From positions 1 to 21,117 of IMG/VR virus record IMGVR_UViG_3300040758_000586: DNA of 21,117 nt. One strand, written 5' to 3'. The stretch is from a virus. The notes under the pieces were generated by a model. It ran no database searches, was not told where the DNA came from, and saw only the letters and a program-made list of their open reading frames with translations. The position numbers were made by a program, and so were the translations under genes. Each line of letters starts with the position of its first letter. Position 1 is the first letter of the stretch. Below, piece after piece: positions 861 to 20,304 of this stretch.

Positions 861-926
861 GGATGAAGGATGAAGGATGAAGGATGAAGGAAATGCAGAA
901 TGCAGAATGCAGAATGCAAAATGAAG
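861..926. repeat. Two adjoining heptanucleotide arrays (GGATGAA, then GCAGAAT/GCAAAAT)
   Basis: About four units of GGATGAA (861-889) run straight into an array that starts GAAATGCAGAAT, continues in 7-base steps and ends AATGAAG. This is the first copy of the dispersed heptad family. It lies between the winged-helix and small-terminase genes. Confidence 0.9.
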
Positions 927-955
927 TTTGAATTCTGGAAGAGGAAAGGGTGCGG

Positions 956-1540
956 ATGAAGACATTCAGAAAACCAAGGAGCGATTCCTACGAAGCCAAT
1001 ATCTCCCCCGAGGACCGCGAGCACCTCTATGCCTGGCTCTTGCAGCCCGGCTTGTCCTTGAAGGAGGCCGCTCGCCGGGCTCCCCCGTGGCGGACCGGCA
1101 AACGGGCCGGCCGCAAACCCGATTCCCAGGCCGTCGCCAAAATCAGCCGCCGCATGCGCACCGAAACCGGCTTGGCCGAATTGGAAGCCGCTGCCCTGGT
1201 CCAGCAGGTCGTCCTCAACAAAATCCTCGAACATATCCCGCCAGGCCAGTTGCACGAGGAAATCACCGATCTCTGCATGAGGTTCATCGGCCAGGACGTC
1301 ATCCACAAAACTTTGCAACAGCTCGACCCGGACTCTCGAACCGATGCCGCCAAACTCCTGCTCCAGCGCTCCGATCAGAACCTCGACCGCCAAAAATTCT
1401 ACCTGCTCCTGCGCAAATACGCGGACGAGGCCAAGGCGGCCAAGGAGAAGGCCCAGCAAGCTGGCGAGGCCGGCCACCGCCAAGGCGGCATCCCGGCGGA
1501 AGTGCTGGCGCAGATCGAAAAGGAATTGAAGTTGTTGTGA
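956..1540 (+). CDS. Small terminase subunit-like protein (Mu gp27/DUF3486-like)
   Basis: 194 residues from ATG 956, with GAGGAAAGG just upstream as a plausible ribosome site; GTG 950 in the same frame is an alternative start. The N-terminal third has a helix-turn-helix feel: LYAWLLQPGLSLKEAARRAP, then SQAVAKISRRMRTETGLAEL. A long helical middle and a Lys/Ala/Glu-rich end (residues about 155-190) follow. DUF3486 small terminases of Mu-like phages have this size, helix content and place directly before the large subunit. The role would be recognising phage DNA and recruiting the large subunit. Codon ends are markedly C-rich here, unlike the G-rich genes before it. The last codon overlaps the proposed GTG start of the next gene, suggesting translational coupling. 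Confidence 0.68.
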   Translation: MKTFRKPRSDSYEANISPEDREHLYAWLLQPGLSLKEAARRAPPWRTGKRAGRKPDSQAVAKISRRMRTETGLAELEAAALVQQVVLNKILEHIPPGQLHEEITDLCMRFIGQDVIHKTLQQLDPDSRTDAAKLLLQRSDQNLDRQKFYLLLRKYADEAKAAKEKAQQAGEAGHRQGGIPAEVLAQIEKELKLL

Positions 1541-3153
1541 AATTAACCGCCAGCCATGCAAAAAGCAGAGCGCGCAAACGCTCCAGACCTGTTACCCCTC
1601 CGCCTCCGCTGGTAGGGCGCGCACTCCGGGCGCGCCGCGGCGGGCAGCGGAGTGCCCGCCCTACCCTTCCCACTCCACCAAAAACGCGGTGTCGCGTCGG
1701 CGCTGTGCGCCGATCCATCCTCCTCCCGCCGCCACCGCCTCTCCGGCTCGATAATTTTTTCCTACCCTATCAGGCCAGGTGGATCAACGACCCTTCGCGC
1801 AGACGGCTTATGGAAAAGTCCCGCCAGATCGGCATTTCCCTTTGCACCGCTTATGACCTCGTCAAGAAAATCGGCCGCCAGAACAGCCCCTTCGATGCCT
1901 GGGTCACTTCCCGCGACGATTTGCAAGCCCGCCTCTTCGGCGCCGATTGCGTCCACTGGGCCAGGCTCCTTCACCGTTCCGCGCGCGCTCTCACCTGGCA
2001 ACTGTTGGATGCGACGGATAAAACCTCTGCCCACGTCCTCCCGCTGGACAGCGGGCGCAGTATCTACTGCCTCTCTTCCAATCCCGATGCCCAGGCAGGC
2101 AAGCGCGGCTACAGGGTTTTTGACGAGTTCGCCCTCAACCTGGAGAACCGCCTCCTCTATTCCATCGGCCAGCCGGGGACGATGTGGGGCGGAGGGATGG
2201 ACATCATTTCCACGCACCGGGGGTCGGAAAATTTTTTCAACGAGCTGGTGAATGAGGCCAGGCATAAGGGGAATCCGAAGGGGTTTTCCCTGCACCGGGT
2301 GACGATTGAGGACGCGTGCCGGGAGGGGTTGCTGGCCAAGCTGCAAAGCAAATGGCGGGAGGCCAATCCGGAGGACGCCCGCTTGCAATGGAAGGACGAT
2401 GATTTTCTACAGGCGATGCGGAATGAATGCGCGGATGAGGAGGTCTGGTTGCAGGAGTTTATGTGCGTGCCGGGGGACGATAAGGCGGCGTTTCTGAGCT
2501 ATGAGCTGATTGCGGGGTGTGAAGAGGGGCAGGAAATGCAAAATGCAGAATGCAGAATGCAGAATGAAGACCAAGAGGAATCGAGTCAGGGCTCGACAGA
2601 GTCTCGCCCTGCCGGGAGCAGGCCGACGGGGGCGTTGTATGCGGGGGTGGATGTGGGACGGGAGCATGATTTGACGGTGATCTGGGTGGTGGAACGGGTG
2701 GAGGATGTATGTTTTACGCGGGAGGTGATCTGCCTGGAGAAGGCGCCGTTCGCGGAGCAGGAGGAGAGGCTGTACGGAATTCTGGCGCTGCCCAATCTGA
2801 AACGGTGCTGCATAGACCAAACGGGGATTGGACGGCAGTTCGCGGAGCGGGCGGCGCAACGGTTCGGACGCTACAAGGTGGAGGGGATTCAGTTCACCAG
2901 CGGAGTGAAGGAGGAGCTGGCCTACGACACGCGCACGGCGTTTGAAAAGAAAACGGTGCGCATCCCGGCGGACAAATGGATTCGGGCGGATTTGCGCAGC
3001 ATGCGCAAGGAGGCGACGGCGTCGGGGAACATCCGGTTCACCGGGGAGCGGACGAAGAACGGGCACGCAGACCGGTTTTGGGGACTGGCGCTGGCGCTGC
3101 ACGCGGCGAAACAAGCGACGAGGACGAACAAGGTTTTTGCGCAACTGATATGA
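1537..3153 (+). CDS. terL: Phage large terminase (ATPase-nuclease, Mu gp28-like)
   Basis: 538 residues from GTG 1537, which overlaps the previous stop as GTGA with AAGGA upstream. No ATG lies in frame before 1810, which is inside the ATPase motif. It is the packaging motor: it hydrolyses ATP to drive DNA into the prohead and cuts the DNA. The 'LPYQARWINDPSRRR' motif precedes the Walker A-like loop EKSRQIGIS (residues about 93-101). Walker B is YRVFDEFA (Asp196-Glu197). The RNase H-like nuclease has Asp372 in YAGVDVGREHD, Asp427 in CIDQTGIG and Asp512 in GHADRFWG, the expected acidic set. Two repeats are built into the frame: a hairpin in the N-terminal leader, and a heptad array plus companion (residues about 333-363) in the linker between domains. 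Base composition flips from C-rich to G-rich near 2170, inside the ATPase domain. Confidence 0.87.
   Translation: MKLTASHAKSRARKRSRPVTPPPPLVGRALRARRGGQRSARPTLPTPPKTRCRVGAVRRSILLPPPPPLRLDNFFLPYQARWINDPSRRRLMEKSRQIGISLCTAYDLVKKIGRQNSPFDAWVTSRDDLQARLFGADCVHWARLLHRSARALTWQLLDATDKTSAHVLPLDSGRSIYCLSSNPDAQAGKRGYRVFDEFALNLENRLLYSIGQPGTMWGGGMDIISTHRGSENFFNELVNEARHKGNPKGFSLHRVTIEDACREGLLAKLQSKWREANPEDARLQWKDDDFLQAMRNECADEEVWLQEFMCVPGDDKAAFLSYELIAGCEEGQEMQNAECRMQNEDQEESSQGSTESRPAGSRPTGALYAGVDVGREHDLTVIWVVERVEDVCFTREVICLEKAPFAEQEERLYGILALPNLKRCCIDQTGIGRQFAERAAQRFGRYKVEGIQFTSGVKEELAYDTRTAFEKKTVRIPADKWIRADLRSMRKEATASGNIRFTGERTKNGHADRFWGLALALHAAKQATRTNKVFAQLI
1611..1665. repeat. REP-like hairpin inside the terminase leader
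   Basis: Arms GGTAGGGCGCGCACTCC (1611-1627) and GGAGTGCCCGCCCTACC (1649-1665) pair over 17 bases with one mismatch, with a GC-rich loop. It lies inside the open frame ahead of the conserved terminase sequence and encodes Arg/Ala/Pro-rich residues. It is probably an inserted palindromic element tolerated in a non-conserved leader, or it marks untranslated DNA if the true start is later (GTG 1705 is possible). Confidence 0.8.
2534..2616. repeat. Heptad array plus companion repeat embedded in terL
   Basis: The array begins GAAATGCAAAATGC and ends AATGAAG at about 2569. It is followed by a companion segment containing GTCAGGGCTCGAC and GAGTCTCGCCCTGCC, parts of which recur near 5073, 8291 and 15803. 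Together they add about 31 residues (EMQNAECRMQNE onward) exactly between the ATPase and nuclease domains, keeping the frame. Confidence 0.9.
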
Positions 3154-3205
3154 AGACGATGAATTTTATGGGGGATGGATTGAGATGGACAGGGGTGGAG
3201 GAGGC

Positions 3206-3245
3206 GGGCCGCGAGGCGCGGCCCACGGCACGCGAGGGCGCGTGC
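3206..3245. repeat. Double REP hairpin between terL and the portal gene
   Basis: Two perfect hairpins lie side by side: GGGCCGC (3206-3212) with GCGGCCC (3218-3224), and GCACGCG (3228-3234) with CGCGTGC (3239-3245, loop AGGG). The 136-base gap also has a 47-codon open frame (ATG 3150, TGA 3291) whose start overlaps the terL stop and whose stop overlaps the next ATG. I see no conserved sequence in it. It may be a coupling leader or the remains of a small gene split by the repeat. Confidence 0.75.
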
Positions 3246-3289
3246 GCTCCCCATGAGATGATTTCTGCGGGTTACCCCGGGGGTCCTCG

Positions 3290-6200
3290 ATGAAAGCCAC
3301 GTTTTTATCCCGCCTCCATGCCGCCGCGAACTTGATTTTCAAGAGCGGCGCGCCCTTTCCGTTCAACAAAATCATGCCCTACGACGCGACGGGCGGGGAA
3401 CGGATGTATCGCGCCTTTGAGCAGTCCACCTGGGTGATGAGGGCGATCAAGAAGATCGCGGGGCCGATCGCGGCGGTGGATTTGAATTTTACGCGGGCCG
3501 GGGAACGGTATCACGAGGCGGAACTGGAGGCCTTTTGGGAGACGCCGGGAACGGGGCTGACGCGGACGGATTTGATCGAGGCGACGGTGGGCTGGCTGAA
3601 GCTGGAGGGGGAGGCGTTCTGGCTGCTGGATGATTCGTGGCTGGGGCCGTTTCCGGGCCAGGGAAATTTAATTGGCGGCGGTCCCAGACCGCCGCTACAG
3701 GTGGCAAGGCCGGACCGGATGCGGCATGTTGTCAAGAATGGAGTGCTGGAGGGCTGGGAATATGTGGACGGGGCGGGAAAGCGGGCGCTGCTGCTGCCCG
3801 AGCAGGTCATCCAGTTGAAGATGTGGAATCCTTACAACGACTGGCGGGGCATGGCGGAGTTGAAACCGTGCCGGGACGCGGCGGAGGCGGATTATCTGGC
3901 GGGGAAGTTCAACTTGAACTTGATGAGGAACAACGGGGACCAGGGGGTGTATGTCATCGCCAAGGAAGGGCTGCCGGAGGACGGGCAGCGGCAACAAATC
4001 GTGGACCAGATCCGGGAGAAGCGGGAGCTGGCGCAGCGCGGGGTGTTCAAGCCGGTGTTTCTGGACGGGGACGTGACGATCGAGGACCCGAAGATCCGGG
4101 TGCCGGACGCGGATTTCATCGCGGCCCGGCTGCAGAACCGGCATGAGGTGTTTATCGCCATGGGGGTGCCGGCTTCGATGGCGGATGTGAAGGCGAGTTA
4201 CTCGATCGGGTCGGCGTCGGACTGGTTCATGTTGATCGCGGAGACGTGCATTCCGCTGGGGGAAAAGATCTGCCAGGGGATCAACCAGGTGTTGCGGCGG
4301 CAGGGGGCGGCGGAGGTGCGGGCGTCGCTGAATTGGGACGAGCATCCGGTGATCCAGGCGGTGCGGCGGGAGCGGGCGGATACGTGTGTCAAATACTTTT
4401 CCATGGGCGTGCCGCTGAAGGCGCTGAATGATTATCTGGACCTGGAGCTGCCGGCCTGTCCGGGGTGGGAAAAGGCTTATGTGCCGGCCAAGCTGACGGC
4501 GATTGGAGAGGAGGCAGAGGAGGGGACGGGCGTGACGATGGATGACACGGTGGGGCTGATGCGCAGGGCGCTGGACCCGGTGGAGCGGCTGAGGAGAGCT
4601 TTTGGGGAAATGCAGAACACAGAGCCGTCCAAATGCAGAATGCAGAATGCAGAATGCAGAATGGAAGAAGAATCGGGTCAGGGGAATGAATGTCAGGGGA
4701 ATAAAGACAGGGGAAATGATTCTTTCCATTCCCCTGACCAACATTCCCCTGACCTAAAATCCGGTCCTTTATTTGCCGGCGGAGTTGGCTTGGCGGAGGA
4801 GAGGGCGGAGCAGAGGGGGATGATGAAGGGGTTTGTCTCGCGGTTTAACCGGGAGTTGATGAAGGCACGAACGGAAACGCTGCGCCGCCTGGAGGGGGCC
4901 GGGACATTTGTGTTTGACACGGAGGGGTTTGCGCGGGGACTGATTACGGGGCTGCGGCCGGTGGCGTTGGAAATGCAAAATGCAGAATGCAAAATGCAGA
5001 ATGAAAGCGGGGGGAAGAGTTGCGGATTAAGATTAAGATCAGGATTAAGATTAGGAGGGGAAGAGGGATCGGGTCAGGGCTCGATGCCCTCCTCCGCTGA
5101 AGCTACGGCGGGCGGGGAGTCCCGCCCTGCCGGGGTTGAGGAATACTTGACAGGACGGGAAACGGTCTGGCGGGCGGAGGCGGAACGGATCGGACGGGAG
5201 ATCGAGGAGGCGGCGGGGGAAATGCAGAATGCAGAATGCAAAATGCAAAATGTGGAGGCGAGGGCGGACGCGGTGCGGGCGAAGTTTAATGAGATAGCCA
5301 GGCGCCGGGCGCCGGAACTGGCGCGGAAAGAAATGCAGAATGCAAAATGCAGAATGCAGAATGAAGGCGCGGATGGAGGATGGAGGATGGAAGCTGGCAA
5401 GGACGCCAAGGGAAGCGGGAGCAATTTCCCGCACACCAAAGGCGCGAACACCAATTTTCCAGGACTGACACCTTCGGGGGAGGAAATGCAGAATGCAGAA
5501 TGCAGAATGCAGAATGAAGGCGCGGATGGAGGATGGAGGATGGAGGATGGCAAAGACGCCAAGGAAAGCGGGAGCAAGCTCCCGCACGCCAAAGGCGCGA
5601 ACACCAACTTTCCAGGACTGGCCCTTTTGCACAATGCAGCGCCGCTGCGGCGGATGATTCACCCGGAGGTGCGGGTGGTGGACGCGCGGCGGGGGATCGT
5701 GGATTATATCGCGTCGGATGAAAGTATTGACAGTTACAAGGAGGTCATCCGGGCGGCGGGCTGGCGGTTCACCAATTTTGCCAAGAACGCGCCGTTTGTG
5801 GATTCGCACGATTATTCGACGATCGAGAAATGCCTGGGGAAGGTGATTGATTTCCGGGTGGAAGGGGCGCGGCTGATCGAACGGGTGCAGTGGGCCATAG
5901 ACGTGCCGGAGAACCAACTGGCCCGGATCGGCTGGAAGATGACGGAGGCGGGCTACCTCAAGGCGGTGAGCGTGGGGTTTTTCCCTGTCAAGTATGTGAC
6001 GCCGAGTTCGGGGGAGGAATGGACGCGGCAGTTGAAGGAGCTGGGGCTGCCCGGCGACGCGGCGGTGCGAACGATTTATACGGAGCAGGAACAGGTGGAG
6101 CTGTCCTGCTGCGTGGTGGGGTCGAATCCCAACGCGCTGGCGAAGGCCTACCAGGCGGGGGCGATCAACGACGCGGACATAGAAACACTTTCCTTGGAAT

Positions 6201-6316
6201 ACTCACAACGTGAAAACGGCCGCGCGGCCGACTGTCCTGCTCCTGCCGCGCCGGCCCCGGGGCAGGCACGGGCGGGGTTTTTAGAGGAATTGCACAAAGC
6301 AATGAAACAGAAATAA
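3290..6316 (+). CDS. Portal protein fused to HK97-type prohead protease, with repeat-filled linker
   Basis: 1008 residues. Residues 1 to about 400 look like an HK97-family portal: YRAFEQSTWVMRAIKKIAGP, then LIEATVGWLKLEGEAFWLL, WNPYNDWRGMAELKP, and a C-terminal EHPVIQAVRRERADTCVKYF. It would form the ring through which DNA enters. Residues about 780-985 look like a peptidase S78 prohead protease: the His is in VDSHDYST (His840), the Ser in LKAVSVGFFP (Ser894), and QVELSCCVVGSNPNALA follows. It would trim capsid scaffold during maturation. Between them lie about 370 residues, part helical (RFNRELMKARTETLRRLEG; RADAVRAKFNEIARR) and part pure repeat: five heptad arrays, a palindrome, a hexamer run and a 137-base duplication, all in frame. 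Two separate genes joined by loss of stops is the simplest origin. Both end domains seem intact. Confidence 0.83.
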   Translation: MKATFLSRLHAAANLIFKSGAPFPFNKIMPYDATGGERMYRAFEQSTWVMRAIKKIAGPIAAVDLNFTRAGERYHEAELEAFWETPGTGLTRTDLIEATVGWLKLEGEAFWLLDDSWLGPFPGQGNLIGGGPRPPLQVARPDRMRHVVKNGVLEGWEYVDGAGKRALLLPEQVIQLKMWNPYNDWRGMAELKPCRDAAEADYLAGKFNLNLMRNNGDQGVYVIAKEGLPEDGQRQQIVDQIREKRELAQRGVFKPVFLDGDVTIEDPKIRVPDADFIAARLQNRHEVFIAMGVPASMADVKASYSIGSASDWFMLIAETCIPLGEKICQGINQVLRRQGAAEVRASLNWDEHPVIQAVRRERADTCVKYFSMGVPLKALNDYLDLELPACPGWEKAYVPAKLTAIGEEAEEGTGVTMDDTVGLMRRALDPVERLRRAFGEMQNTEPSKCRMQNAECRMEEESGQGNECQGNKDRGNDSFHSPDQHSPDLKSGPLFAGGVGLAEERAEQRGMMKGFVSRFNRELMKARTETLRRLEGAGTFVFDTEGFARGLITGLRPVALEMQNAECKMQNESGGKSCGLRLRSGLRLGGEEGSGQGSMPSSAEATAGGESRPAGVEEYLTGRETVWRAEAERIGREIEEAAGEMQNAECKMQNVEARADAVRAKFNEIARRRAPELARKEMQNAKCRMQNEGADGGWRMEAGKDAKGSGSNFPHTKGANTNFPGLTPSGEEMQNAECRMQNEGADGGWRMEDGKDAKESGSKLPHAKGANTNFPGLALLHNAAPLRRMIHPEVRVVDARRGIVDYIASDESIDSYKEVIRAAGWRFTNFAKNAPFVDSHDYSTIEKCLGKVIDFRVEGARLIERVQWAIDVPENQLARIGWKMTEAGYLKAVSVGFFPVKYVTPSSGEEWTRQLKELGLPGDAAVRTIYTEQEQVELSCCVVGSNPNALAKAYQAGAINDADIETLSLEYSQRENGRAADCPAPAAPAPGQARAGFLEELHKAMKQK
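4608..4664. repeat. Heptad array in the portal-protease linker (copy 1)
   Basis: Begins GAAATGCAGAA, is interrupted by about 15 unrelated bases, then runs as GCAGAAT units from 4631 to 4664. It is in frame and encodes MQNAECRM-type residues. Confidence 0.9.
4676..4754. repeat. In-frame palindromic repeat in the portal-protease linker
   Basis: The left arm (4676-4702) has two GTCAGGGGAAT units and the right arm (4728-4754) has two ATTCCCCTGAC units, so it folds into a long imperfect hairpin. A third, divergent unit (GACAGGGGAAA) follows the left arm. The element is coding, reading QGNECQGNKDRGN then HSPDQHSPDL. It sits just after a heptad array. Confidence 0.85.
4971..5130. repeat. Composite repeat block in the linker: heptads, hexamers, hairpin
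   Basis: A heptad array (4971-5005) is followed by ATTAAG/ATTAGG hexamers (5024-5055, encoding RLRLRSGLRLG), then the GTCAGGGCTCGA companion repeat near 5073, then a perfect hairpin GGGCGGG (5110-5116) with CCCGCCC (5121-5127). All are translated. Confidence 0.85.
5220..5252. repeat. Heptad array in the portal-protease linker
   Basis: GAAATGCAGAATGCAGAATG, then two GCAAAAT units. It encodes EMQNAECKMQN between two helical segments of the linker. Confidence 0.9.
5331..5620. repeat. Direct duplication of a 137-base composite repeat
   Basis: Copies at 5331-5467 and 5484-5620 are each 137 bases and differ at about nine positions by my count. Each has a heptad array, a GGATGGA run, and a hairpin-bearing segment around GCGGGAGCAA and CCCGCAC. 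The spacing of 153 bases is 51 codons, so the duplication keeps the frame. A related fragment appears near 15865 in the coiled-coil gene. Confidence 0.92.
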
Positions 6317-6323
6317 AGAAAAT

Positions 6324-7586: not shown

Positions 7587-7597
7587 TTTTGCCGCGA

Positions 7598-7650
7598 AAA
7601 GGCGCAAAAGGCGCAAAAGAAAAAGGATTAAGATTAAGATTAGGATTAAG
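7598..7650. repeat. Short tandem repeats between capsid gene and next gene
   Basis: Units of GGCGCAAAA are followed by ATTAAG/ATTAGG hexamers (7624-7650). They leave only about three bases before the next ATG, so an AGGATTAAG unit occupies the ribosome-site position. Confidence 0.85.
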
Positions 7651-7653
7651 AAT

Positions 7654-8148: not shown

Positions 8149-8153
8149 GAGAA

Positions 8154-8375
8154 GTGCAGAGTGCAGAGTGCAGAGTGCAGAGTGCAGAGTGAGGAATGAG
8201 GAGTGAGGAGTGGAAGAGGGAGGGCGGCGGGGTTGGCGAGCCCCGCCGCCCCATCCCAAAGGCGAAATGCAAAATGAAGAATGAAGAAACAAGTCACGGC
8301 TCGACGGAGTCTCGCCCTCCCAACGGGAAGCATTTCGGCGGGGGCGCCGGACAAATGAAGAGTGCAGAATGCAGC
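8154..8375. repeat. Repeat-packed 270-base gap
   Basis: This gap holds no gene that I can support. It contains GTGCAGA units (8154-8190), then GAGGAAT/GAGGAGT variants, a short heptad array (about 8265-8286), a companion repeat with GGCTCGACGGAGTCTCGCCC (about 8296-8315), and further AGTGCAGAATGCAG remnants (8355-8375). Before the next ATG lie CTCTTAACTCTTAAGTCTTA steps and a T-run. Confidence 0.85.
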
Positions 8376-8418
8376 GCGCTGAATTCTCAACTCTTAACTC
8401 TTAAGTCTTAACTTTTTT

Positions 8419-9051: not shown

Positions 9052-9056
9052 AAACA

Positions 9057-9137
9057 TTTTTGGACAGGATGAACAGGATGAACAGGATTGGGGAATCTCC
9101 ATCCGGGGCCGGGGGCATCCTGCCCATCCTGTCAAAA
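9057..9137. repeat. Inverted repeat made of nonamer units between genes
   Basis: Left arm TTTTGGACAGGATGAACAGG (from 9057, continuing to 9080) and right arm CATCCTGCCCATCCTGTCAA (from 9116, continuing to 9137) are near-complementary. The left side is tandem AACAGGATG. It ends six bases before the next ATG, so it lies in the 5' leader of that gene. Confidence 0.85.
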
Positions 9138-9142
9138 TAATT

Positions 9143-9856: not shown

Positions 9857-9862
9857 AGGCGG

Positions 9863-9885
9863 AATGAAGAATGCAAAATGAAGAA
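9863..9885. repeat. Short heptad-family remnant
   Basis: GAATGAAGAATGCAAAATGA lies a few bases after the preceding stop. Only two or three units remain. Confidence 0.75.
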
Positions 9886-9924
9886 CGGGGAATGGGGAGC
9901 AATGAGTCAAACATAGGATAAATT

Positions 9925-10872: not shown

Positions 10873-10887
10873 GAACAAGAAGGAGGC

Positions 10888-11298: not shown

Positions 11299-11327
11299 AA
11301 ATGCAGAATGCAGAATGCAAAATGAAA
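11298..11327. repeat. Heptad array between tail genes
   Basis: AAAATGCAGAATGCAGAATG, then GCAAAATGAAAGG. It begins on the last base of the preceding stop codon and ends about ten bases before the next ATG. Confidence 0.88.
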
Positions 11328-11337
11328 GGCGTCTGAG

Positions 11338-11970: not shown

Positions 11971-12057
11971 GAGAATGCAAAATGCAAAATGCAAAATGAG
12001 GAACCACAGATGGACGCCGATGGGCACGGATTTATCCGCGTTAGTCCGGGTTAATCC
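11971..12057. repeat. Heptad array followed by a dispersed-repeat remnant
   Basis: Three GCAAAAT units end at about 12000. ACCACAGATGGACGCCGATG and GGCACGGATTTATCCGCG follow, of a kind seen as scattered intergenic repeats in many bacterial genomes. No gene is supported in the gap. Confidence 0.75.
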
Positions 12058-12075
12058 ACGCTTCAAATTGAAATT

Positions 12076-13299
12076 ATGAAAAATGAAAATTGCGAAAAGA
12101 GGAGCGGCTGGAAGCCGCTGGAACCGGCAGGCAGGATGCCTGACCTACTGCGGCTGTTTCTGCCATTCTGCATTCTGCATTTTGCATTCTGCATTTGCCT
12201 TGGGCAGACGCGGTCGGCGCTGATGGTGACGAACGAGACGGGGCGACTGGCGGGGCCGACGAACTTTTTCGCGGCGAACTCGAATTTGCTGAATCAGGCG
12301 GTGAACACCAACGGGTTCGGCGGCGGCGGGGGCGCGGCGTTCGGGGGGAATCCACACTGGTTTTTCACCAATGGGGCGGGGCAGATTGACCTGCAACTGA
12401 GCCTGAGCAATTTCTTCAATGCGCTGCAAATCGGGTCGGTGAACCTGACCAATTGGTCGGCGCTGGCCACCAATGTGTTGCAGACGGAAATATCCGCGGC
12501 AACCAATGGGCTGAACGTTGGGCAGTATCTGGCAGCCAATGGAGGGGCGGGCAACGCCAACACGCTGACCAATCCCGCCGTGCAGGGCGGCCTCTATTTC
12601 CCCATCGGCGGCTTTGATTGGATTGGGGAGGCGATGGGCAATGTGTTTGATCTGCTGGACACCAATGGAAACATCGCGCTGCAAATCACCAACAATCACC
12701 AGGGGGCGAACCTCTACGCGGACCTGACGATTGCGAACAATTTATTCCTGGCGGGGAACAATCCGGGCATCTGGAACCACGGCACGGCCCAGTGGCAGGG
12801 CAGCCTCAACATTGTTGGGGCATTGAGCGGCAACGGCTCTGCGCTGACCTTCCCAAGCCTGTCAATGGATTTAACTTCTATGGGGCCATCAATCCATCCA
12901 ACAGCGTCGTGGTTGTCTATGGCGATTCGACCGCGGTCGGGCTTTCCAGTTATTGGCTGGACCAAGGATGGTTTACCAATCTGGGCGCAATTCTCAAATA
13001 TGGCGTCAACGGCTCAACTCTGGCTCAGGCCAAGACGGCTTTTGAAGGCAACGGGCTTGCGACCTACGGCTATTCTCAGGCCGGAAGCAACGTCGTTTTT
13101 CTGCTCAAAAGCATGGAGAATGACGTGGCGGGCGACCCTGTGGCCGAGATCACCACCCTCTCCAACTTGCTGGTCGAAGTCGTTTCCAGCAATGCCCTGC
13201 CTGTCGTCTATACCATCATGCCGCGCACAAATCCTGACTTTGCGGCCACTGAAGCCTTTATCCGGCAAGTCAACTATTACATCCGGCATGAACCGTTGA
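12076..13299 (+). CDS. Tail-fibre-like protein, 5' part of a frameshifted gene
   Basis: Open for 407 codons, but only about the first 258 are meaningful. Residues about 24-43 (LLRLFLPFCILHFAFCICLG) form a strongly hydrophobic stretch that would serve as a signal peptide or anchor; its core is encoded by a heptad array in reverse orientation. ATG 12136 is an alternative start. The following part is Asn/Thr/Gly/Ala-rich, typical of trimeric fibre shafts: NLTNWSALATNVLQTEISAA, then SLNIVGALSGNGSALT. At about 12850 coherent sequence stops in this frame and continues in the frame of the SGNH-bearing reading frame, so residues beyond about 258 are out-of-frame noise. The two frames were almost certainly one protein of about 1040 residues. 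Confidence 0.7.
   Translation: MKNENCEKRSGWKPLEPAGRMPDLLRLFLPFCILHFAFCICLGQTRSALMVTNETGRLAGPTNFFAANSNLLNQAVNTNGFGGGGGAAFGGNPHWFFTNGAGQIDLQLSLSNFFNALQIGSVNLTNWSALATNVLQTEISAATNGLNVGQYLAANGGAGNANTLTNPAVQGGLYFPIGGFDWIGEAMGNVFDLLDTNGNIALQITNNHQGANLYADLTIANNLFLAGNNPGIWNHGTAQWQGSLNIVGALSGNGSALTFPSLSMDLTSMGPSIHPTASWLSMAIRPRSGFPVIGWTKDGLPIWAQFSNMASTAQLWLRPRRLLKATGLRPTAILRPEATSFFCSKAWRMTWRATLWPRSPPSPTCWSKSFPAMPCLSSIPSCRAQILTLRPLKPLSGKSTITSGMNR
12103..12196. repeat. Two GGA-loop hairpins and a reversed heptad array at the fibre 5' end
   Basis: AGCGGCT-GGA-AGCCGCT (12103-12119) and CAGGCA-GGA-TGCCTG (12128-12142) are perfect hairpins with the same three-base loop. The reversed heptad array (about 12163-12196, ATTCTGC/ATTTTGC units) follows. 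All are translated in the fibre frame, and the alternative ATG 12136 lies in the second hairpin. Confidence 0.9.
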
Positions 13300-15194
13300 T
13301 CTGGAGGGTGGTGGATAGCGAGGCCATGATTCAGAACAATTACGACCCAAACAATACGGTGGACGGGACGCATCCTTGGGCCAGCCGTTATCAGATGTTT
13401 GCCAATGCGGCGGCCCAGCAAATTGACGCCAAGGTGAAAGTCACGCCTCCCGACTTGTTTGTTGGGGTGGAAGGGACAAACCTTCTTGGGACAGTGCCGA
13501 ACGCGGACGGCTCATTCACCACGCTTTGGACGGGCAATACAAATGGATTAAGCATTACAAATGGCCTCATCATCAACAAAGGAATTGCGGCAGACGCAGT
13601 GCTTCCCGCGATTCAAATCAACGGGAGCTATTGGTCGGATGGTCTGGAGACTGGAAACGCCATTGACTGGCTTTTTCCCGGCACCACTAATTATTTTTTA
13701 CGCCTTGTGGGCGCCCTTGGAGTTGACGATGCGAACCTCGGAGATTTTGTTGTCAGGATGCAGCCGGACGGAGGCGGTTATGGGAGTTTTGACGCCCTTC
13801 GGCTTAATCATGTTGCCAATCTCGGCATCGCTGGCAACGGCACATTCACCAACGGCGTCATTTTCCCCGTGAACACCCTGACCATGGCCACAGTGACCAA
13901 CACGTTCACCAACGGGAGCGCCTGGGTGGGGATGATTAACGGCTCGCTCATCAGTCTGACGATGAGCAACAATATCGTCACATCAAATACCTTGAGCTGC
14001 CTGAGCGGCAACGGCTCCGCCCTGACCAACGCCGGAGGGTTCAAATTCATTGCCCCGACCAACGCGGCCATTGCCGGGCCGGGATGGTTTTTGTTGACAG
14101 ACGGGGTTAATGCTTTTTGGACAAATGATTTTACTGCCTGGCTGGGCAATGCCTACATTCAGACGGCGGCCTACATCAATGCCTTGACCGTCACAAACAA
14201 TGCCAACTTCCTAGAAACCATTCAGTTCGGTGGAACCAATGCGGCGGCAGGCCAGGTTTTGACGGCCAGCGATGCCAGCGGCCACGCGACCTTTCAGCCG
14301 GCCAGCGGCGGCGGGACCAACTTCGTAAGCAGCTTCGCTCCGTGGCTTTGGGAGACGAATAGTGCCGGACAAATTGACTTGTCGGTGGCTGCGAGCAACT
14401 TTCTTTCAGGGCTGAACATCACGACTGGAAACAATGTGATTCTGAGCAATTTAATCGTCGCCTTCGGTGGCACGTCCACGGGGAACGGATACATGGTGAC
14501 GAATTATCTTGGAAAATGGGGATTGACCCCTGCCGTGCCTGGCGGCGGCTCGACTCCAACCTTAAATCCGAGCGTGTTTGCAAGCATCAATGGACAAACC
14601 AATCTTGCTCCTGCGGCAACACCGGGGGCAACCGGAACCAATTTGTCAGTCAATGGTTTGACGAATGTGGGGGTTGAAACGATAGCGAACGCAACCGTCC
14701 CCGCAACCCAAAGCAGTTTTGTCTTTCAAGGCGTGACCTATAATGCCATTCACATAGATGGAGCGCGGGCTTATACTGGATTAACCAACGGTATTATCTG
14801 GTGGGAAGGAAATCCCACAAACCATCATTTCTGGCAGACGAATTTCCTCTCCACGGCGACAAACAATGCTGGCATAGTATATTCAAATTGGCCTCCGGGA
14901 CTGGGATTCACCAACACCTTTGTCGGAGACGCCTACCTGCGCGGAGGCGTAACCTCAAATGCTAGTTTCACGCTTGCCTATAAAACAATGGTTTATGGTT
15001 CGACGTATGGCAGCTCCCTACAATCTCATGGCGCGGCTGTCGCGGGGGCTACGCCTTACAACATACATGGAGGGCTTGCTGCTCCGGCCTGGTTAATGAA
15101 TAGTGTTGGCGTTGCTTTGGCCGTCACAACTCCCGACACAAACGTAATGGCCGGCCTAATTCAGGTGGAATGGTTGATGCAACAATACCCATGA
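12792..15194 (+). CDS. Tail-fibre-like protein with SGNH hydrolase domain, 3' part of the frameshifted gene
   Basis: Open for 800 codons; meaningful sequence starts at about residue 20 (LPKPVNGFNFYGAINPSNS). Residues about 39-210 are an SGNH/GDSL hydrolase. Block I is VYGDSTAVG with nucleophile Ser46, block II KYGVNGSTL, block III KSMENDVAGDP with Asn110, and block V TVDGTHPW with Asp191 and His194. Such domains remove acyl groups, often acetyl, from glycans. The remaining 590 residues are fibre-like with recurring CLSGNGSALTNAGG and TNA-rich stretches and a C-terminal domain near LGFTNTFVGDAYLRGG. Codon choice is less G-biased than in neighbouring genes, suggesting separate origin. The probable job is to modify host surface polysaccharide during adsorption. 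Confidence 0.78.
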   Translation: MAGQPQHCWGIERQRLCADLPKPVNGFNFYGAINPSNSVVVVYGDSTAVGLSSYWLDQGWFTNLGAILKYGVNGSTLAQAKTAFEGNGLATYGYSQAGSNVVFLLKSMENDVAGDPVAEITTLSNLLVEVVSSNALPVVYTIMPRTNPDFAATEAFIRQVNYYIRHEPLIWRVVDSEAMIQNNYDPNNTVDGTHPWASRYQMFANAAAQQIDAKVKVTPPDLFVGVEGTNLLGTVPNADGSFTTLWTGNTNGLSITNGLIINKGIAADAVLPAIQINGSYWSDGLETGNAIDWLFPGTTNYFLRLVGALGVDDANLGDFVVRMQPDGGGYGSFDALRLNHVANLGIAGNGTFTNGVIFPVNTLTMATVTNTFTNGSAWVGMINGSLISLTMSNNIVTSNTLSCLSGNGSALTNAGGFKFIAPTNAAIAGPGWFLLTDGVNAFWTNDFTAWLGNAYIQTAAYINALTVTNNANFLETIQFGGTNAAAGQVLTASDASGHATFQPASGGGTNFVSSFAPWLWETNSAGQIDLSVAASNFLSGLNITTGNNVILSNLIVAFGGTSTGNGYMVTNYLGKWGLTPAVPGGGSTPTLNPSVFASINGQTNLAPAATPGATGTNLSVNGLTNVGVETIANATVPATQSSFVFQGVTYNAIHIDGARAYTGLTNGIIWWEGNPTNHHFWQTNFLSTATNNAGIVYSNWPPGLGFTNTFVGDAYLRGGVTSNASFTLAYKTMVYGSTYGSSLQSHGAAVAGATPYNIHGGLAAPAWLMNSVGVALAVTTPDTNVMAGLIQVEWLMQQYP

Positions 15195-15201
15195 AAGGGT
15201 G

Positions 15202-15272
15202 AAGGATGAAGGATGAAGGATGAAGAAGGGGGAGCCGGGATTAAGATTAAGATGAGGATTAAGATGAGGATT
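15202..15272. repeat. GGATGAA heptamers and ATTAAG hexamers before the coiled-coil gene
   Basis: Three GGATGAA units (15202-15227) are followed by ATTAAGATTAAGATGAGG-type hexamers (15238-15272). The GAGGA of the last hexamer is about five bases from ATG 15275 and may serve as its ribosome site. Confidence 0.88.
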
Positions 15273-15274
15273 TT

Positions 15275-16114
15275 ATGGAGATGGAAGCGAACAAGTCTGT
15301 AGAACGGCCGGAAATGGAAGTTCGTGTGGAGACGGCGCTGGAACTGGCCGGAGCGGAGGAGGGGGCGGCGACACTGGAGAGGGCCATCGGGAAAGCCAAG
15401 GCGCTGGGCCGGAGTTTTGATCACCTGGAAAAGCAACTGGCCAAGGCGAGGGAAGGGGTGAGGCGGTATCGCCTGGCACACCCCGGCGGCGGCGGGGTTG
15501 TGCAGGGAACGCAAAATGCAGAATGCAGAATGCAAAATGGAAACGAGGAAGCGGGGCAGAATGGCGGATTTCCGCCCTCGTTGCGCCCTGAGGAGACCAG
15601 GCTGATTTCCGCCGTCGTTGAGGCTTCCGCCATGGCCGGGGCTTTGGCGGACGAGATGGCGGACAGGGCGGATGGCGCATTGGAAGAAGGCCTGCGGGCG
15701 GCGGAGGAAATGAAAAATGCAGAATGCAAAATGCAGAATGATCCAAGTGCAGAGCGCAGCATGCAGAATGGAGCAGCCTCCGCTCTCAACTCTTCAGTCT
15801 CAACTTCAGAGTCTCGCCCTACCGGAGCAGAAGGAGGGGAGCATGGCAAAGGGTCTGAGGAAAGCGGGAGCAAGCGCCCGCACTCCACAGGGAGGGCTGC
15901 GGCGGCGCGAGACGAAGGGAGGATGGAGGAGGGCGGATGGCGGATGATGGCCCAGGCGGCGCGACGGGAGATCGAGGAGAGGGTGCGGGAGGCGCTGGAG
16001 GAGCGGGAAAGAGGACGGCCGGAACACAGCCAGGCCGAGGAGAGCCGCCTGGCGGCGGTGGAGTCGCGGCTGCAGCGGCTGGAGGAACGGACGAGGATTA
16101 ACCGGGATATTTGA
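15275..16114 (+). CDS. Coiled-coil phage-region protein with embedded repeats
   Basis: 279 residues, hydrophilic and mostly helical. The first helical block is residues about 12-70 (ALELAGAEEGAATLERAIGK, then FDHLEKQLAKAREGVRRYR), the second about 104-145 (ETRLISAVVEASAMAGALAD), the last about 225-275 (ARREIEERVREALEERERGR, then LAAVESRLQRLEERTR). Between them lie translated repeats: a heptad array at residues about 79-88, another at about 145-156, then segments encoding SESRPTGAEGG and KGSEESGSKRPHS that match the repeat block in the portal linker. Removing them would leave a continuous helical protein. It lies between fibre and hub-like genes, so a tail-tip or fibre-associated role is possible, but no family is recognised. 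Confidence 0.65.
   Translation: MEMEANKSVERPEMEVRVETALELAGAEEGAATLERAIGKAKALGRSFDHLEKQLAKAREGVRRYRLAHPGGGGVVQGTQNAECRMQNGNEEAGQNGGFPPSLRPEETRLISAVVEASAMAGALADEMADRADGALEEGLRAAEEMKNAECKMQNDPSAERSMQNGAASALNSSVSTSESRPTGAEGGEHGKGSEESGSKRPHSTGRAAAARDEGRMEEGGWRMMAQAARREIEERVREALEERERGRPEHSQAEESRLAAVESRLQRLEERTRINRDI
15511..15900. repeat. Translated repeat blocks inside the coiled-coil gene
   Basis: Heptad arrays lie at 15511-15539 and 15709-15741, with a remnant at about 15761. A GAGTCTCGCCCTACCGG companion lies near 15806. A GGAAAGCGGGAGCAAGCGCC segment near 15859 is like that duplicated at 5331-5620. All are in frame. Confidence 0.85.
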
Positions 16115-16124
16115 GGGTGAACAG

Positions 16125-16302
16125 AATGCAAAATGCAGAATGCAAAATGAAGAATACAGAAGGCGGCCCGACCTCACCCCAACAGCCCTTTAAAAAACGG
16201 CCCGGTGAGGGCACCGGGCCTACAACAGATGCATGCTTTGCGAGGGAAATGCAGGCCGCGTGCCCTCACGCGGCGGAACTGGAGCCTTTTTTTAACGGGC
16301 TG
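16125..16302. repeat. Heptad array and nested hairpins before the hub-like gene
   Basis: The 220-base gap has no gene I can support. A heptad array (16125-16155) is followed by an outer inverted repeat (CAGCCCTTTAAAAAA at 16183-16197; TTTTTTTAACGGGCTG at 16287-16302). It encloses two perfect hairpins: 16199-16220 (stem GGCCCGGTG, loop AGGG) and 16255-16274 (stem GCCGCGTG, loop CCCT). The two hairpin tips, GTGAGGGCAC and GTGCCCTCAC, are exact reverse complements. It could be a terminator or a pair of opposed REP units. Confidence 0.8.
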
Positions 16303-16334
16303 GCAATCCTCCCCTCCAGGAGAGGGACTCAAAC

Positions 16335-18728
16335 ATGACTTACACGACGCTGACTTATAACGGGACGGAGAAATGCCTGGCGGATTGGGGGGTGGCGCGG
16401 TGGCGGCGGGAATGTTTTAACCAGGCCAGCGATTCGTTCGGGTTTGATCTTCTCGCACAAGCCGATGCCGCCGAGATTTTCGCTTTTGGCGCGATGGTCA
16501 AGATTTCCACGGGGAGGACGCCCGGGCCAGGCGTCCCTACCTCGGCGGCAGGGTTGCCGGTTTCGGGCTGCACTTCGTGGACGGGGGGGAAGACTTGGTT
16601 TGTGGGATGGCGGGCGCAGAATGTGCGGACGGGGACGGCGGAGATGGAGGGGTTCAAGTATAAGCTGGCGGGGCCGTGGGACTTTTTCTTCGAGCGGCTG
16701 GTTTTTCAGAAGCTGTGGCTGACGTGGAACGGGGTCAAACAAATCGCGGACTGGCGCTCGCAGGTGGTGCTGGGGATGAGCGTGAACGCGCTGACGGGGG
16801 CTGGGGACACGGTGACGGGGAGCACGACGACGAACCTGATGAGCATCAGTCAACAATTAAAGGAGATTACATCGTATGTCATTGCGCAAAGCGCCTACGA
16901 GCAAACGGTCAACGGGCTGGGCTGGCCCGCGGGCGGGCAGATGCAGTTTGACAACCTCACGACGGACGCGAACGGCAATTACCATTTATTGCCGGCGCCT
17001 GGCGCAAATTGCAGAATCCCGGATTTTGTGCCGGGGTACGCGGGGGCAAGCGGAGACACGCCGGTCAGCACGTCGGGCCTTATGCTGCGCGCTCCTCTGG
17101 ATGCGGTGAACGACATGACGTGCGCGGAGTGTTTTAGAAGGATGCTGCGCTGGATCGGGGCGGTGGGCTCGCCGGTGGTGTGGTTTGATTACACGACGAC
17201 GCCGCCGACGCTGAAGGTGAGCACGCGGGACCAGTTGCCGGCGGTGACGCTGGCGTTGCCGGAAGCGGACGGAGCGGGCGGATCGGTCGAATCGGTCAGG
17301 ATTCAAAGGAGGGATGATCTCGTGCCGTCTGCGATTGCCTTTAAATATCGCCTCAGCGGGCAGATTAATGGGACGCCCTATTCGATCATCGAGAACGACA
17401 TCGCGGCGACGGTGGACGGGGCGCCGGCGGAGGGGATCGGGATGTTCGGGCTGCTGACGAATTTGGGCGGGGGGGCGATTTCCGCGGAGGCGCAGGCGCA
17501 GTTGCCGTTGCAGGCGCGGCGTTTTGCGGCGCAAATTGCGACGTTCGATTTCGAGGGTTTTTCCAGCGACACGGCCAGCGGGACGATTGCGACGGTGGGG
17601 CTGAACCTGGCGGATCCGGCGGGCGGGGGAGGGTCCACGGGGTTTTGGACGGCGCTGTTTCCGCAACTGGCGGCGGTGAGCAATCTGGCCTTTTACCAGG
17701 ATCCCAGCGGGGCGGTGGCGCCGACGGTGCAGGATGGGAGCGGGGCGGCGATCAACACGACGAATTTTTCGAACATGCTGGTGGACGGGAACGTGGCGCC
17801 GTGGATGTATGTCAACAATACGCCGAGCAGCAACACGCCGGGAGCGTGCGTGCCGGCGACGATCACGGCTTACTTTTCCTACACGGACAACGCCAGCCCG
17901 GCGGCGGATACGAGCGTCAATCCGGGCACGGTGCAATGTCATCCGCTGACGATCAAGGTGAAGCTGACGAATCTGAGCAGCGGGACCTATCAATCGCGCC
18001 AGCAAGTCAACCCCGGGGAGCCGGTGCCCTACGGGCTGGCGGGATATGTTTACGGGATCGAGGCGATCCGGCAATACCAGGGAAGATTCACGGTGGTGGA
18101 GGAGGAGATCAGCGATGTGTGCGGGATGGGGCACGGATTGAATTTGAGCGGGGGCCTGGCGGAATGGGGGACGATGAACGCCTGCGTGCAGCAGGTGAAT
18201 TATGATGAGGCGGGGAGGACGGAAATTATTTTTGGTCCGGCGCAGCATTTGGGGAACGCGGACCTGGTGGAGCGGCTGCGGGTGAACCGGGGTCCGCGCT
18301 GGTATAACCTGATCGGGAACGATTTGTTGAACGCCAATGTGACCTCGGGTCCGACCGCGCTGGGGAAGAATACGCCGGTATCGTCTCCGAGTCCGGGGAA
18401 CAAGGTATGCAGCGAGACGCTGCATCCGCAGAGTCTGAAAGACTTGCAAAGCCATTTGTCGGGCTACACGCAGTTATTGCCGGGTGTGTATACCTGGAGC
18501 AAAGGCAATGGCCGGAGCGGATTGAGCCTGGTGGACGCGGGGCCGGGGCTGGCGCTGGCGGGGGGAAGCGGCGGGACGCTGGACGCGCAGTATGTGCTGA
18601 TGTCGGTGGCGCAACTGGTTTCGGTGGTGGCGGGCCAGCCGGTGAAATTCTTTGAACTGAACACGTGCGAGGACGGGGACGCGACGTATTACCGGACGTT
18701 TCTTTGCACGGATAAATATCATCATTGA
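16335..18728 (+). CDS. Large tail hub/baseplate-like protein
   Basis: 797 residues, intact. GGAGAGGG about nine bases before the ATG is one of the clearest ribosome sites in the window. Residues 1 to about 125 look like the first barrel of a tail hub: FGFDLLAQADAAEIFAFGAM, KTWFVGWRAQNVRTGTAEME, YKLAGPWDFFFERLVFQ. Residues about 225-345 contain a second hub-like part: CAECFRRMLRWIGAVGSPVV, then WFDYTTTPPTLKVSTRDQL. The rest is beta-rich (GEPVPYGLAGYVYGIEAIRQ; EAGRTEIIFGPAQHLGNADL). This split-barrel plan resembles gp27/gp44-type hubs and would place it at the tail tip, but no motif settles it. A REP hairpin is translated within the first barrel. Cys is frequent for a cytoplasmic phage protein. 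Confidence 0.58.
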   Translation: MTYTTLTYNGTEKCLADWGVARWRRECFNQASDSFGFDLLAQADAAEIFAFGAMVKISTGRTPGPGVPTSAAGLPVSGCTSWTGGKTWFVGWRAQNVRTGTAEMEGFKYKLAGPWDFFFERLVFQKLWLTWNGVKQIADWRSQVVLGMSVNALTGAGDTVTGSTTTNLMSISQQLKEITSYVIAQSAYEQTVNGLGWPAGGQMQFDNLTTDANGNYHLLPAPGANCRIPDFVPGYAGASGDTPVSTSGLMLRAPLDAVNDMTCAECFRRMLRWIGAVGSPVVWFDYTTTPPTLKVSTRDQLPAVTLALPEADGAGGSVESVRIQRRDDLVPSAIAFKYRLSGQINGTPYSIIENDIAATVDGAPAEGIGMFGLLTNLGGGAISAEAQAQLPLQARRFAAQIATFDFEGFSSDTASGTIATVGLNLADPAGGGGSTGFWTALFPQLAAVSNLAFYQDPSGAVAPTVQDGSGAAINTTNFSNMLVDGNVAPWMYVNNTPSSNTPGACVPATITAYFSYTDNASPAADTSVNPGTVQCHPLTIKVKLTNLSSGTYQSRQQVNPGEPVPYGLAGYVYGIEAIRQYQGRFTVVEEEISDVCGMGHGLNLSGGLAEWGTMNACVQQVNYDEAGRTEIIFGPAQHLGNADLVERLRVNRGPRWYNLIGNDLLNANVTSGPTALGKNTPVSSPSPGNKVCSETLHPQSLKDLQSHLSGYTQLLPGVYTWSKGNGRSGLSLVDAGPGLALAGGSGGTLDAQYVLMSVAQLVSVVAGQPVKFFELNTCEDGDATYYRTFLCTDKYHH
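16516..16536. repeat. REP hairpin embedded in the hub-like gene
   Basis: GGACGCC (16516-16522) pairs with GGCGTCC (16530-16536) around a 7-base loop and is followed by CTACC as in other hairpins here. It encodes the Gly/Pro/Thr run RTPGPGVPTS, which interrupts the strand pattern between MVKISTG and KTWFVGW. Confidence 0.75.
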
Positions 18729-18729
18729 T

Positions 18730-18765
18730 CGGACGGATTGGACGGATTGGACGGATCGGACAGAT
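18730..18765. repeat. Nonanucleotide tandem repeat between tail genes
   Basis: Three to four units of GGACGGATT, the last one changed, fill the 52-base gap before the next ATG. Confidence 0.85.
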
Positions 18766-18780
18766 TAGCGAGAATGAACC

Positions 18781-20268
18781 ATGGCTAACCGAGTGGCAAC
18801 GTGTCCGAGGGCGAAGCAGATCGTCGGGACCAAGCAGTGGATCGGCTGGGCGGGTTTTTTCTCGTTTCCGGGATTCAAGGGGAACTGGGTTTACCCGGTG
18901 ACTTACGCCGGGGGCGTGCCGACGAACAGCGGGCCGGGAAGCTGGACGTTCAGCGCGGCGGGAGGGGCGATGACGGGGAGCGCGGCGGATTTCAATGCGG
19001 GGGATTTGGTGTTGCGGGAATTTGAGGCGGTGGGGCCGCTGACGGATTATTTGACGGGGCTTTCCCAGAGTTACCCGAAATACTGGCAGGTGTATATATG
19101 CACGGCGGCGATCACGGGAAGCACCACCGATCCGGCGCTGGATGCGGCGCATTTCACGCCGTGGGATTACCAGGTGTTCACGGTGAGCGGCGGGACGCTG
19201 CATGGGGATGCGGGGAATGCGGCGGGCGGTCCGAGCGGGTGGCCTGCGCAGGCCGGCAGCATTGGCGGGAGCGGACGGGCGCTCTTTACGGAGACGACGA
19301 CGAGCAGTAATTTAGAATTGACAATGACAACGGAGCTTGCGAATTTTCCATTGATGCCGGCGACGATCAGCGGGCTGACGGCGGCGCTGGGGACGACGAA
19401 TGACAGCGCGCCGGCCTGGGTCAATCCGACGGTGCCGGAGGCGGCGGCGGCGGGGACCTTCGTCTATGATTGGACCTTCGCGAATAATTACGACGGGACG
19501 GCGGCGACTTACACGCCTCCGGGAACGGGGCCGAGCGCGGAACAGGGGCCGCTGGTGTTTCCGGGGCTGCCGTATCAACGCGGGGTGGGTTTCTGGCCGG
19601 TGCTTCCCGGGGACGGGTCAATCGCGAGTGTGTTTGCCATCAATCCTTCGCCGCCGGCGGTGTATTTGCCGGGGCTGGTGAGTTGGACCTACGGCGCGAG
19701 TTCATTGCAGTTCGAGTTCGCGGCCTGGAGCTGGAGCGAGAGCGTGGAATACAGTTTTGCGCTGGGCCATTTTGGGGCGCTGGCGACGGCGCCGGGGACG
19801 ATCACGCAGACGATCACGCTGGGGACGGCTTACAGTTTAAGCGAGGTGGCCGCGCAGGCGGCCGCCTTGATGGGCGCCACCCCGTTTGACTCGATAGCCT
19901 GGGGCACCAGTTGGACCAACACCTACAGCCCGGCCGGCGCGGTCGTCTCGACGCAGAATTTTGCGAGCACGGTGGCGAATGTGATCACGGCGTCATGCCA
20001 GATAGGGACGCCGGTGCAAATTCTGTATGGAGGGAGCGTGGCGGGGCAGGGGGCGGCGGTGAACGGGCTGTTCACGTCGGGGGTGAGTTGGTGTTATTGC
20101 AGCAAAGCTCTTGTGGACGTGTGCGGGAATTATTGCCAGCGGACCTACAACTGCCCGACGGTGACGTGTGTCTCGGGAAATGTGGACGGGTATGACCCGG
20201 TGGAGATTGACCCGCCGGGAACGCCGGGGGAGAGCGCGGCAATTTATGCGGGGTGCCAATGCACCTGA
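18781..20268 (+). CDS. Cys-rich tail-region protein, unknown function
   Basis: 495 residues, intact. It is rich in Gly, Ala, Thr and aromatic residues and looks largely beta: KQWIGWAGFFSFPGFKGNWV, LVSWTYGASSLQFEFAAWSW, TITLGTAYSLSEVAAQAAAL. The last 65 residues carry eight Cys in closely spaced pairs (WCYCSKALVDVCGNYCQ, NCPTVTC, GCQC), suggesting a metal-binding or disulfide-bonded knob. No signal peptide is present. It follows the hub-like gene with a 52-base repeat gap and is the last large gene of the element. Tail-tip, receptor-binding or adhesin-like roles are possible. I recognise no family. Confidence 0.6.
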   Translation: MANRVATCPRAKQIVGTKQWIGWAGFFSFPGFKGNWVYPVTYAGGVPTNSGPGSWTFSAAGGAMTGSAADFNAGDLVLREFEAVGPLTDYLTGLSQSYPKYWQVYICTAAITGSTTDPALDAAHFTPWDYQVFTVSGGTLHGDAGNAAGGPSGWPAQAGSIGGSGRALFTETTTSSNLELTMTTELANFPLMPATISGLTAALGTTNDSAPAWVNPTVPEAAAAGTFVYDWTFANNYDGTAATYTPPGTGPSAEQGPLVFPGLPYQRGVGFWPVLPGDGSIASVFAINPSPPAVYLPGLVSWTYGASSLQFEFAAWSWSESVEYSFALGHFGALATAPGTITQTITLGTAYSLSEVAAQAAALMGATPFDSIAWGTSWTNTYSPAGAVVSTQNFASTVANVITASCQIGTPVQILYGGSVAGQGAAVNGLFTSGVSWCYCSKALVDVCGNYCQRTYNCPTVTCVSGNVDGYDPVEIDPPGTPGESAAIYAGCQCT

Positions 20269-20271
20269 AGA

Positions 20272-20304
20272 AATGCAGAATGCAAAATGAAAAATGCAAA
20301 ATGA
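20272..20304. repeat. Heptad array after the Cys-rich gene
   Basis: GAAATGCAGAATGCAAAATG, then AAAAATGCAAAATGAAG. Its last ATG (20294) opens the frame of the next small gene, making that ATG a likely false start. Confidence 0.88.

Follow-up and report, generated by a model that had tools for sequence, protein, structure and literature searches.

Heptanucleotide arrays with shared ends and a preferred size occupy conserved slots, with changing units, in a lineage of tailed phages

The stretch of tailed-phage DNA analysed here, a virus record of 21,117 bp that we call the window, contains 14 arrays in which two or more GCARAAT units are perfect (or one unit is mismatched), 13 on the + strand and one on the - strand, and relatives 85-90% identical to it hold heptamer arrays of different units (GCTAAAT, GCGGATT, GCAGAAA) in the same slots. 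With moderate confidence, we interpret these arrays as a dispersed short repeat cassette, RAATG(CARAATG)n, usually with n = 4 (33 nt), that was copied and replaced within one tailed-phage lineage. The window encodes a large terminase (terL, with Terminase_6N and Terminase_6C domains), a fused portal and protease and a Phage_capsid-family capsid protein, followed by connector and tail genes. A first-pass annotation had listed GCAGAAT/GCAAAAT arrays both in gaps and inside genes, and the arrays are real, nearly all of the positions that it named holding an intact or degenerate array (Table 1). The exceptions are 4608, which is a lone partial unit (the array lies at 4632-4663), and 8355, with only about 1.7 units; those listed at 8265 and 9863 are present in short, degenerate form.

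Table 1. Heptamer arrays in the window (window coordinates; n, number of CARAATG units)
Feature	Coordinates	Strand	Context
GCARAAT array, n=4	892-923	+	Intergenic; adjoins AAGGATG heptamer array at 859-891
GCARAAT array, n=4	2535-2566	+	In terL, between Terminase_6N ATPase and Terminase_6C nuclease
GCAGAAT array, n=4	4632-4663	+	In portal-protease ORF
GCARAAT array, n=4	4972-5003	+	Portal-protease ORF, in place of a segment conserved in relatives; GCGGATT array in L150
GCARAAT array, n=4	5221-5252	+	Portal-protease ORF; net +24 nt relative to relatives
GCARAAT array, n=4	5332-5363	+	At end of portal homology; in first of two 153-bp tandem copies
GGATGGA heptamer array	5371-5391	+	Portal-protease linker; second copy at 5524-5550
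GCAGAAT array, n=4	5485-5516	+	In second 153-bp tandem copy
AGTGCAG/AGTGAGG heptamer array	8153-8212	+	Starts 5 nt past stop codon; slot holds ATTGCGG in L150, AATGCAG in L151
Degenerate GCAAAAT/GAAGAAT array, short	8266-8286	+	Intergenic
Degenerate array, short	9863-9883	+	Just past stop codon; slot holds GATTGCG in L150, AAATGCT in L156
GCARAAT array, n=3	11300-11324	+	2 nt past conserved stop codon; other heptamers in L150, L155, L156
GCAAAAT array, n=3	11974-11998	+	4 nt past stop codon; AAATGCT in L156
Reversed GCARAAT array, n=4	12164-12195	-	Hydrophobic core of signal-peptide-like start FLPFCILHFAFCICLGQ
AAGGATG heptamer array	15195-15225	+	Immediately past stop codon
GCARAAT array, n=4, first unit mutated	15508-15539	+	In ORF 15275-16114; aligned array in L150
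GCARAAT array, n=4, first unit mutated	15709-15740	+	In ORF 15275-16114
GCARAAT array, n=3	16125-16149	+	11 nt past stop codon
GCARAAT array, n=4, one unit mutated	20272-20303	+	4 nt past stop codon

All 14 arrays fit AATG(CARAATG)n, with n = 4 in 11 of them and n = 3 in the other three, allowing for a single mutated unit in a few. Among their 53 units the six fixed positions (1-6) vary at only 3 of 318 sites, while the R position is G in 32 units and A in 21, so that R is a true two-state position and not random decay. The ends proposed in the first-pass annotation, GAAATG and AATGAA, are roughly right: a purine precedes the first AATG in 14/14 arrays, and C never follows the last AATG. Chance is excluded as an origin, because a de novo scan for period 7 in the window and 13 relatives (200 kb) returned 64 arrays, far above any other period, compared with none in shuffled sequence, and because the reversed GCARAAT pattern occurred 0 times in every genome searched. 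The same spacers and linkers of the window hold further heptamer families (AAGGATG, GGATGGA and AGTGCAG) together with GATTAR hexamers and 9-mers; the hexamer arrays, near 5025, 7626, 10850, 15239 and 20624, form one sequence family found in at least five places and also in L153 and L155. No larger composite element is evident around each window array, the flanks being 31-34% alike compared with 27%, mostly through purine composition, and a composite marked by the motif GGCTCGACGGAGTCTCGCCCT was rejected since GGCTCGACGGAGTCTCGCCCT lies near some arrays and not others. A motif, GAATCGAGTCAGGGCTCGACGGAGTCTCGCCCT, is dispersed at 2575-2613, 5063-5101 and 8283-8321, near some arrays, and recurs in L150, L151, L152 and L155.

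The comparisons were made among metagenomic virus contigs, in which misassembly of the arrays is unlikely because they are shorter than one sequencing read. For the statistics on unit sharing, size and ends, relatives were picked by their capsid gene and not by their arrays; tblastn of the capsid protein against GenBank found no named phage relative, and searches with portal and tail proteins added one further relative only (L256). Three records (L012, L020 and L024) that might have served as independent near-identical phages differing in their arrays were discarded, as they are overlapping records with 100% identity. In that other phage (L012/L024), dispersed repeats about 200 bp long have an AATGCAG array as their 5′ end.

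In aligned spacers, the slots are filled by GCGGATT or GGCTGAA in L150, by GCTAAAT with TTTAGCC/CTTCAGC in L156, by GCAGAAA with GTAGAAA in L155, and by AATGCAG and others in L151, and some relatives have nearly no period-7 arrays. Within a phage the unit is shared far beyond expectation (133 same-phage pairs with the same unit versus 44.6 expected; permutation p ~5e-5), also when the window is left out (24 versus 6.9). Two L150 arrays align with arrays of the window, and part of the distribution is therefore vertical inheritance. The earlier view of the arrays as discrete copied units thus stands as regards their conserved ends and lineage-specific presence, but not as regards a single fixed sequence, since other heptamers fill the same slots in relatives. 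Alignment of terL and portal genes with and without the array did yield sites that lack the insert, as in the terL genes of L155 and L157 at the position of the window array, but no target duplication was seen at the aligned empty sites of relatives, none of which aligns cleanly. At the best-aligned of them, the 5221 slot, a 32-nt array corresponds to a net gain of 24 nt; the array replaces or accompanies sequence loss, and a clean insertion is not supported there.

The foremost alternative is that these are ordinary simple sequence repeats, each expanded at its own site from a short seed through replication slippage, with the bias to heptamers reflecting the polymerase footprint. Heptanucleotides are reported as the commonest long class of such repeats in most prokaryotes, and polymerase slippage has been proposed for them (PMC4679880 and PMC4692102, citing earlier work); the variation between n = 3 and n = 4 in the window, and a slot in L151 that holds about seven perfect units along with decayed ones, are what slippage would produce. 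Array lengths, however, do not fall off but peak at 30-33 nt, both in phages and, separately, in bacterial loci with units other than GCARAAT (the bacterial histogram leaves out that unit, by which the loci had been chosen, and its variants), while shuffled sequences contain none that long. End phases for the same unit are constant within a genome and different between genomes: the window arrays start and end on AATG, those of G014 start on AATG and end after AA, and those of G001 start on AGAATG. In addition, one unit recurs over unrelated slots of a phage, and n is 4 in the in-gene arrays, whereas 7-nt growth steps at a fixed site would preserve the reading frame only when three units, or a multiple of three, are added. 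Slippage as the whole account is thus unlikely, and dispersal of a discrete cassette is favoured over it because of the fixed ends, the preferred size, the one main unit per phage and the turnover in slots.

Under cassette dispersal, a cassette would arise in or arrive at a genome, be copied with defined ends into several of its slots, and later be replaced by another, so that relatives would carry equivalent cassettes of other heptamers in the same expendable places, namely behind stop codons, in linkers and in a signal-peptide core. We infer that the spread involves copying, which may proceed by template switching, by recombination or through a transposase supplied by the host; as the first-pass annotation had remarked, no mobilising enzyme is visible, there being no transposase among the window ORFs scanned. 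The two-state R position and the differing R patterns among arrays are unlike what exact copying of one 33-mer would predict. The cassettes themselves are probably for the most part selfish or neutral.

Absence of the arrays outside this locus, which the first-pass annotation had said would argue for local slippage only, is not what was found, as they occur far beyond it and in several bacterial phyla. GCARAAT arrays are present in genomes labelled Verrucomicrobia, Planctomycetes, Acidobacteria, Bacteroidetes, Clostridia and Cyanobacteria (loci chosen by the GCARAAT unit itself), with 0 occurrences of the reversed pattern. Array-rich bacterial stretches are dominated by period 7, with few units per genome, and those genome-specific. 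In an Acidobacteria genome, arrays paired in opposite orientation flank short, unlike cores (folding z about -11), and one Oscillospiraceae and one Bacteroidaceae genome have dispersed repeats, about 165 and 118 bp long (L203:10783-10949 and L200:9918-10035), whose inverted arms are heptamer arrays, the Bacteroidaceae copy matching, among the matches listed, only within its own genome. These bacterial dispersed repeats look like MITE or REP-type elements, and the phage cassettes may represent a minimal form of such MITE-like palindromes with heptamer arms. One verrucomicrobial stretch (L169-L171; contig C374 of G001) has 43 heptamer arrays in 40 kb, many in a tandem family of large genes. Capsid relatives, which occur in 7/49 genomes of one Limisphaerales family versus 6/388 of a sample of the phylum, point to Limisphaerales as the candidate host. 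The repeat vocabulary of such a host was rejected as the source of the arrays: GCARAAT arrays occur in 7/49 genomes of that family, with at most nine matches, and other heptamers are almost absent from the parts read.

A broader proposal, to which we assign a lower probability than to slippage, is that an undescribed general bacterial process both makes heptad cassettes and inserts them, across unrelated phyla and their phages, downstream of genes and in linkers; each cassette would have about 4.5 units (30-33 nt), and its unit and ends would be particular to the genome. The dimorphic position would then stem from a template, as in wobble pairing to an RNA, rather than from decay.

Of the 37 intergenic period-7 arrays counted in the window and seven close relatives, 21 have a purine-rich coding strand and start -1 to 20 nt past a stop codon (median 4), while six pyrimidine-rich ones end 3-11 nt upstream of a start codon (gene starts, and so position and orientation, were estimated by homology in relatives). 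A strong G+C hairpin, GGGCGGCGGGG...CCCCGCCGCCC, follows a gene at 8218-8258 and is kept in aligned relatives; it may be terminator-like or regulatory. Inside genes, where 9 of the 14 GCARAAT arrays of the window lie, all have n = 4 and seven of eight read in one frame, RAATG(CARAATG)4 being 33 nt and frame-neutral. The in-frame additions to proteins that the first-pass annotation had recognised are borne out in terL, portal-protease and ORF 15275, and those in terL and portal-protease sit in linkers. In the portal-protease ORF (3290-6316), portal homology ends at about residue 685, exactly at an array start, and protease homology resumes at about residue 781. In the more distant relatives L157, L159 and L161, that place is occupied by a MuF domain (Pfam E 1e-13 to 1e-17) and the protease is a separate ORF; a weaker MuF match is kept in L152 and L155, and none is found in the window, L153 or L156. 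In the window the place of the missing domain is taken by repeats, including a 153-bp tandem duplication (5322-5627; 90% identical) that contains both an AATGCAG and a GGATGGA array, and L153 and L156 have other repeats there; the capsid tree does not settle whether MuF was lost once or repeatedly. At the position of the reversed array in the signal-peptide-like start (12164-12195, with the perfect units at 12165-12192), L155 and L156 have other T-rich heptamers. The surrounding region, 12076-15194, is one 840-aa ORF in L156 and two overlapping frames in the window, split near 12.8 kb by a frameshift or sequencing error.

The arrays had also been singled out for being open in all six frames, which is true and unremarkable: 50% of the possible heptamers give no stop in any of the six frames, 65% at the G+C content of the window. 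Six-frame openness as a special design was accordingly rejected. On the coding strand, 18/18 units inside genes lack a stop, compared with 21/39 between genes (p=4e-4), and because stop-containing units do occur between genes and half of heptamers are open anyway, openness reflects survivorship. Inside genes, only stop-free and frame-compatible copies would survive, so that the protein gains a hydrophilic linker EMQNAECRMQNE from an array or, where the array is reversed, a hydrophobic segment.

These placements could instead reflect selection at the RNA or protein level, for purine-rich tracts after stops, for pyrimidine-rich tracts ahead of start codons, and for linkers or signal peptides that tolerate any frame, heptamers being merely a handy way to make them. 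The distances to stop and start codons are in keeping with this, as are the paired arrays in L155 and L156 spacers, which fold with z of about -2 to -3.8, and the signal-peptide core spelled by different T-rich repeats in different phages. For the window arrays alone, however, RNA folding is unremarkable (z -0.2 to -1.3), and such selection leaves the fixed ends, the fixed unit per phage and the dimorphic R unexplained; we consider it an improbable account of the whole. The least probable reading is that the arrays are oriented, dispersed binding sites of a phage protein, by analogy with stoperators, which are dispersed, mostly in one orientation and phage-dependent in motif (PMC6550527), or with the 7-bp parS heptads of omega/ParB systems, of which pSM19035 requires at least four contiguous copies (PMC9499535); the phage-specific motif, the modal n of 4, the orientation of 13/14 arrays relative to transcription and the position of many behind stop codons would suit it, but the GCARAAT unit and the same length also occur in unrelated bacterial phyla, several heptamer families coexist in a phage, many arrays are located far inside coding linkers, some relatives are almost devoid of arrays, and no ribbon-helix-helix binder or ParA was found among the ORFs scanned (part of the ORFs of a window that is itself a fragment).

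The cassettes both resemble several known systems and differ from them. The stoperators of cluster A mycobacteriophages are likewise dispersed, oriented, phage-specific short sites, but they are single asymmetric 13-bp sites bound by a repressor, whereas the window arrays have no known binder and arrays also occur outside phages; no stoperator-type repressor gene was found in the window fragment. The parS of pSM19035 shares contiguous 7-bp repeats, at least four being needed (n = 4 in 11/14 window arrays), but is clustered at a few plasmid promoters and bound by omega, and its unit, WATCACW, is unrelated to GCARAAT. Rickettsia palindromic elements are short repeats in frame in unrelated protein genes (reviewed in PMC10969869), and the parallel that the first-pass annotation drew with them holds for the effect, in-frame additions to proteins, but not for the sequence, as those elements are palindromes of about 150 bp with a conserved peptide and the window arrays are 25-33 nt and not palindromic. 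Closer to them than the heptamer arrays is a palindrome, AGCGGGAGCAAGCTCCCGC, dispersed at 5389-5442, 5542-5595 and 15838-15891 with the in-frame reading SGSK.PH; similar motifs occur in L150 and L153 and in none of 49 Limisphaerales-family genomes. MITEs and REP-like palindromes are also short, non-coding dispersed repeats, with heptamer arms in the Oscillospiraceae and Bacteroidaceae elements, but the window arrays are single, 13/14 of them on the same strand, and have no inverted partner or core, nor was a target duplication seen; terminal inverted repeats, absent from the window arrays, are present in elements of G014 and G011.

The closest relatives of the phage arrays are the heptanucleotide repeats of bacteria (cyanobacterial STRRs, P6b of the tRNA-Leu intron, Xanthomonas GGGAATC, Nostoc GGGGAYT and Beggiatoaceae TAACTGA), which likewise consist of a few 7-bp head-to-tail units and are dispersed, mostly intergenic and genome-specific. 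The GGGAATC repeats of Xanthomonas follow the upstream ORF at short distance (mean 28 nt), with slots that are kept while length and sequence vary (PMC4692102), and the heptamer classes of tRNA-Leu intron P6b differ among Nostoc lineages (PMC3488679). As in STRRs, the arrays described here are tandem 7-bp units at many loci per genome, many of the intergenic ones close behind the upstream gene. They differ from the bacterial repeats in their phage setting, in being in many cases in frame in structural genes, in the swapping of units within the same slot among phages that are 85-90% identical, and in their near-fixed n = 4 and fixed ends. Heptanucleotide arrays in bacteria were thus already known, and what is new is the phage setting, the slot with unit turnover, the fixed cassette size and the replacement of a domain; we found no published description of these phage cassettes in the open-access literature.

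Although bacterial heptanucleotide arrays have been known for decades, no explanation of their origin is generally accepted. The conserved slots, replaced units, fixed ends and preferred size seen in these phages make the origin and spread of such repeats testable. The in-gene cases further place repeats where a protein domain formerly stood, and a signal peptide is supplied from non-coding DNA; repeats can serve in this way because a stop-free unit of seven bases is open in every frame.
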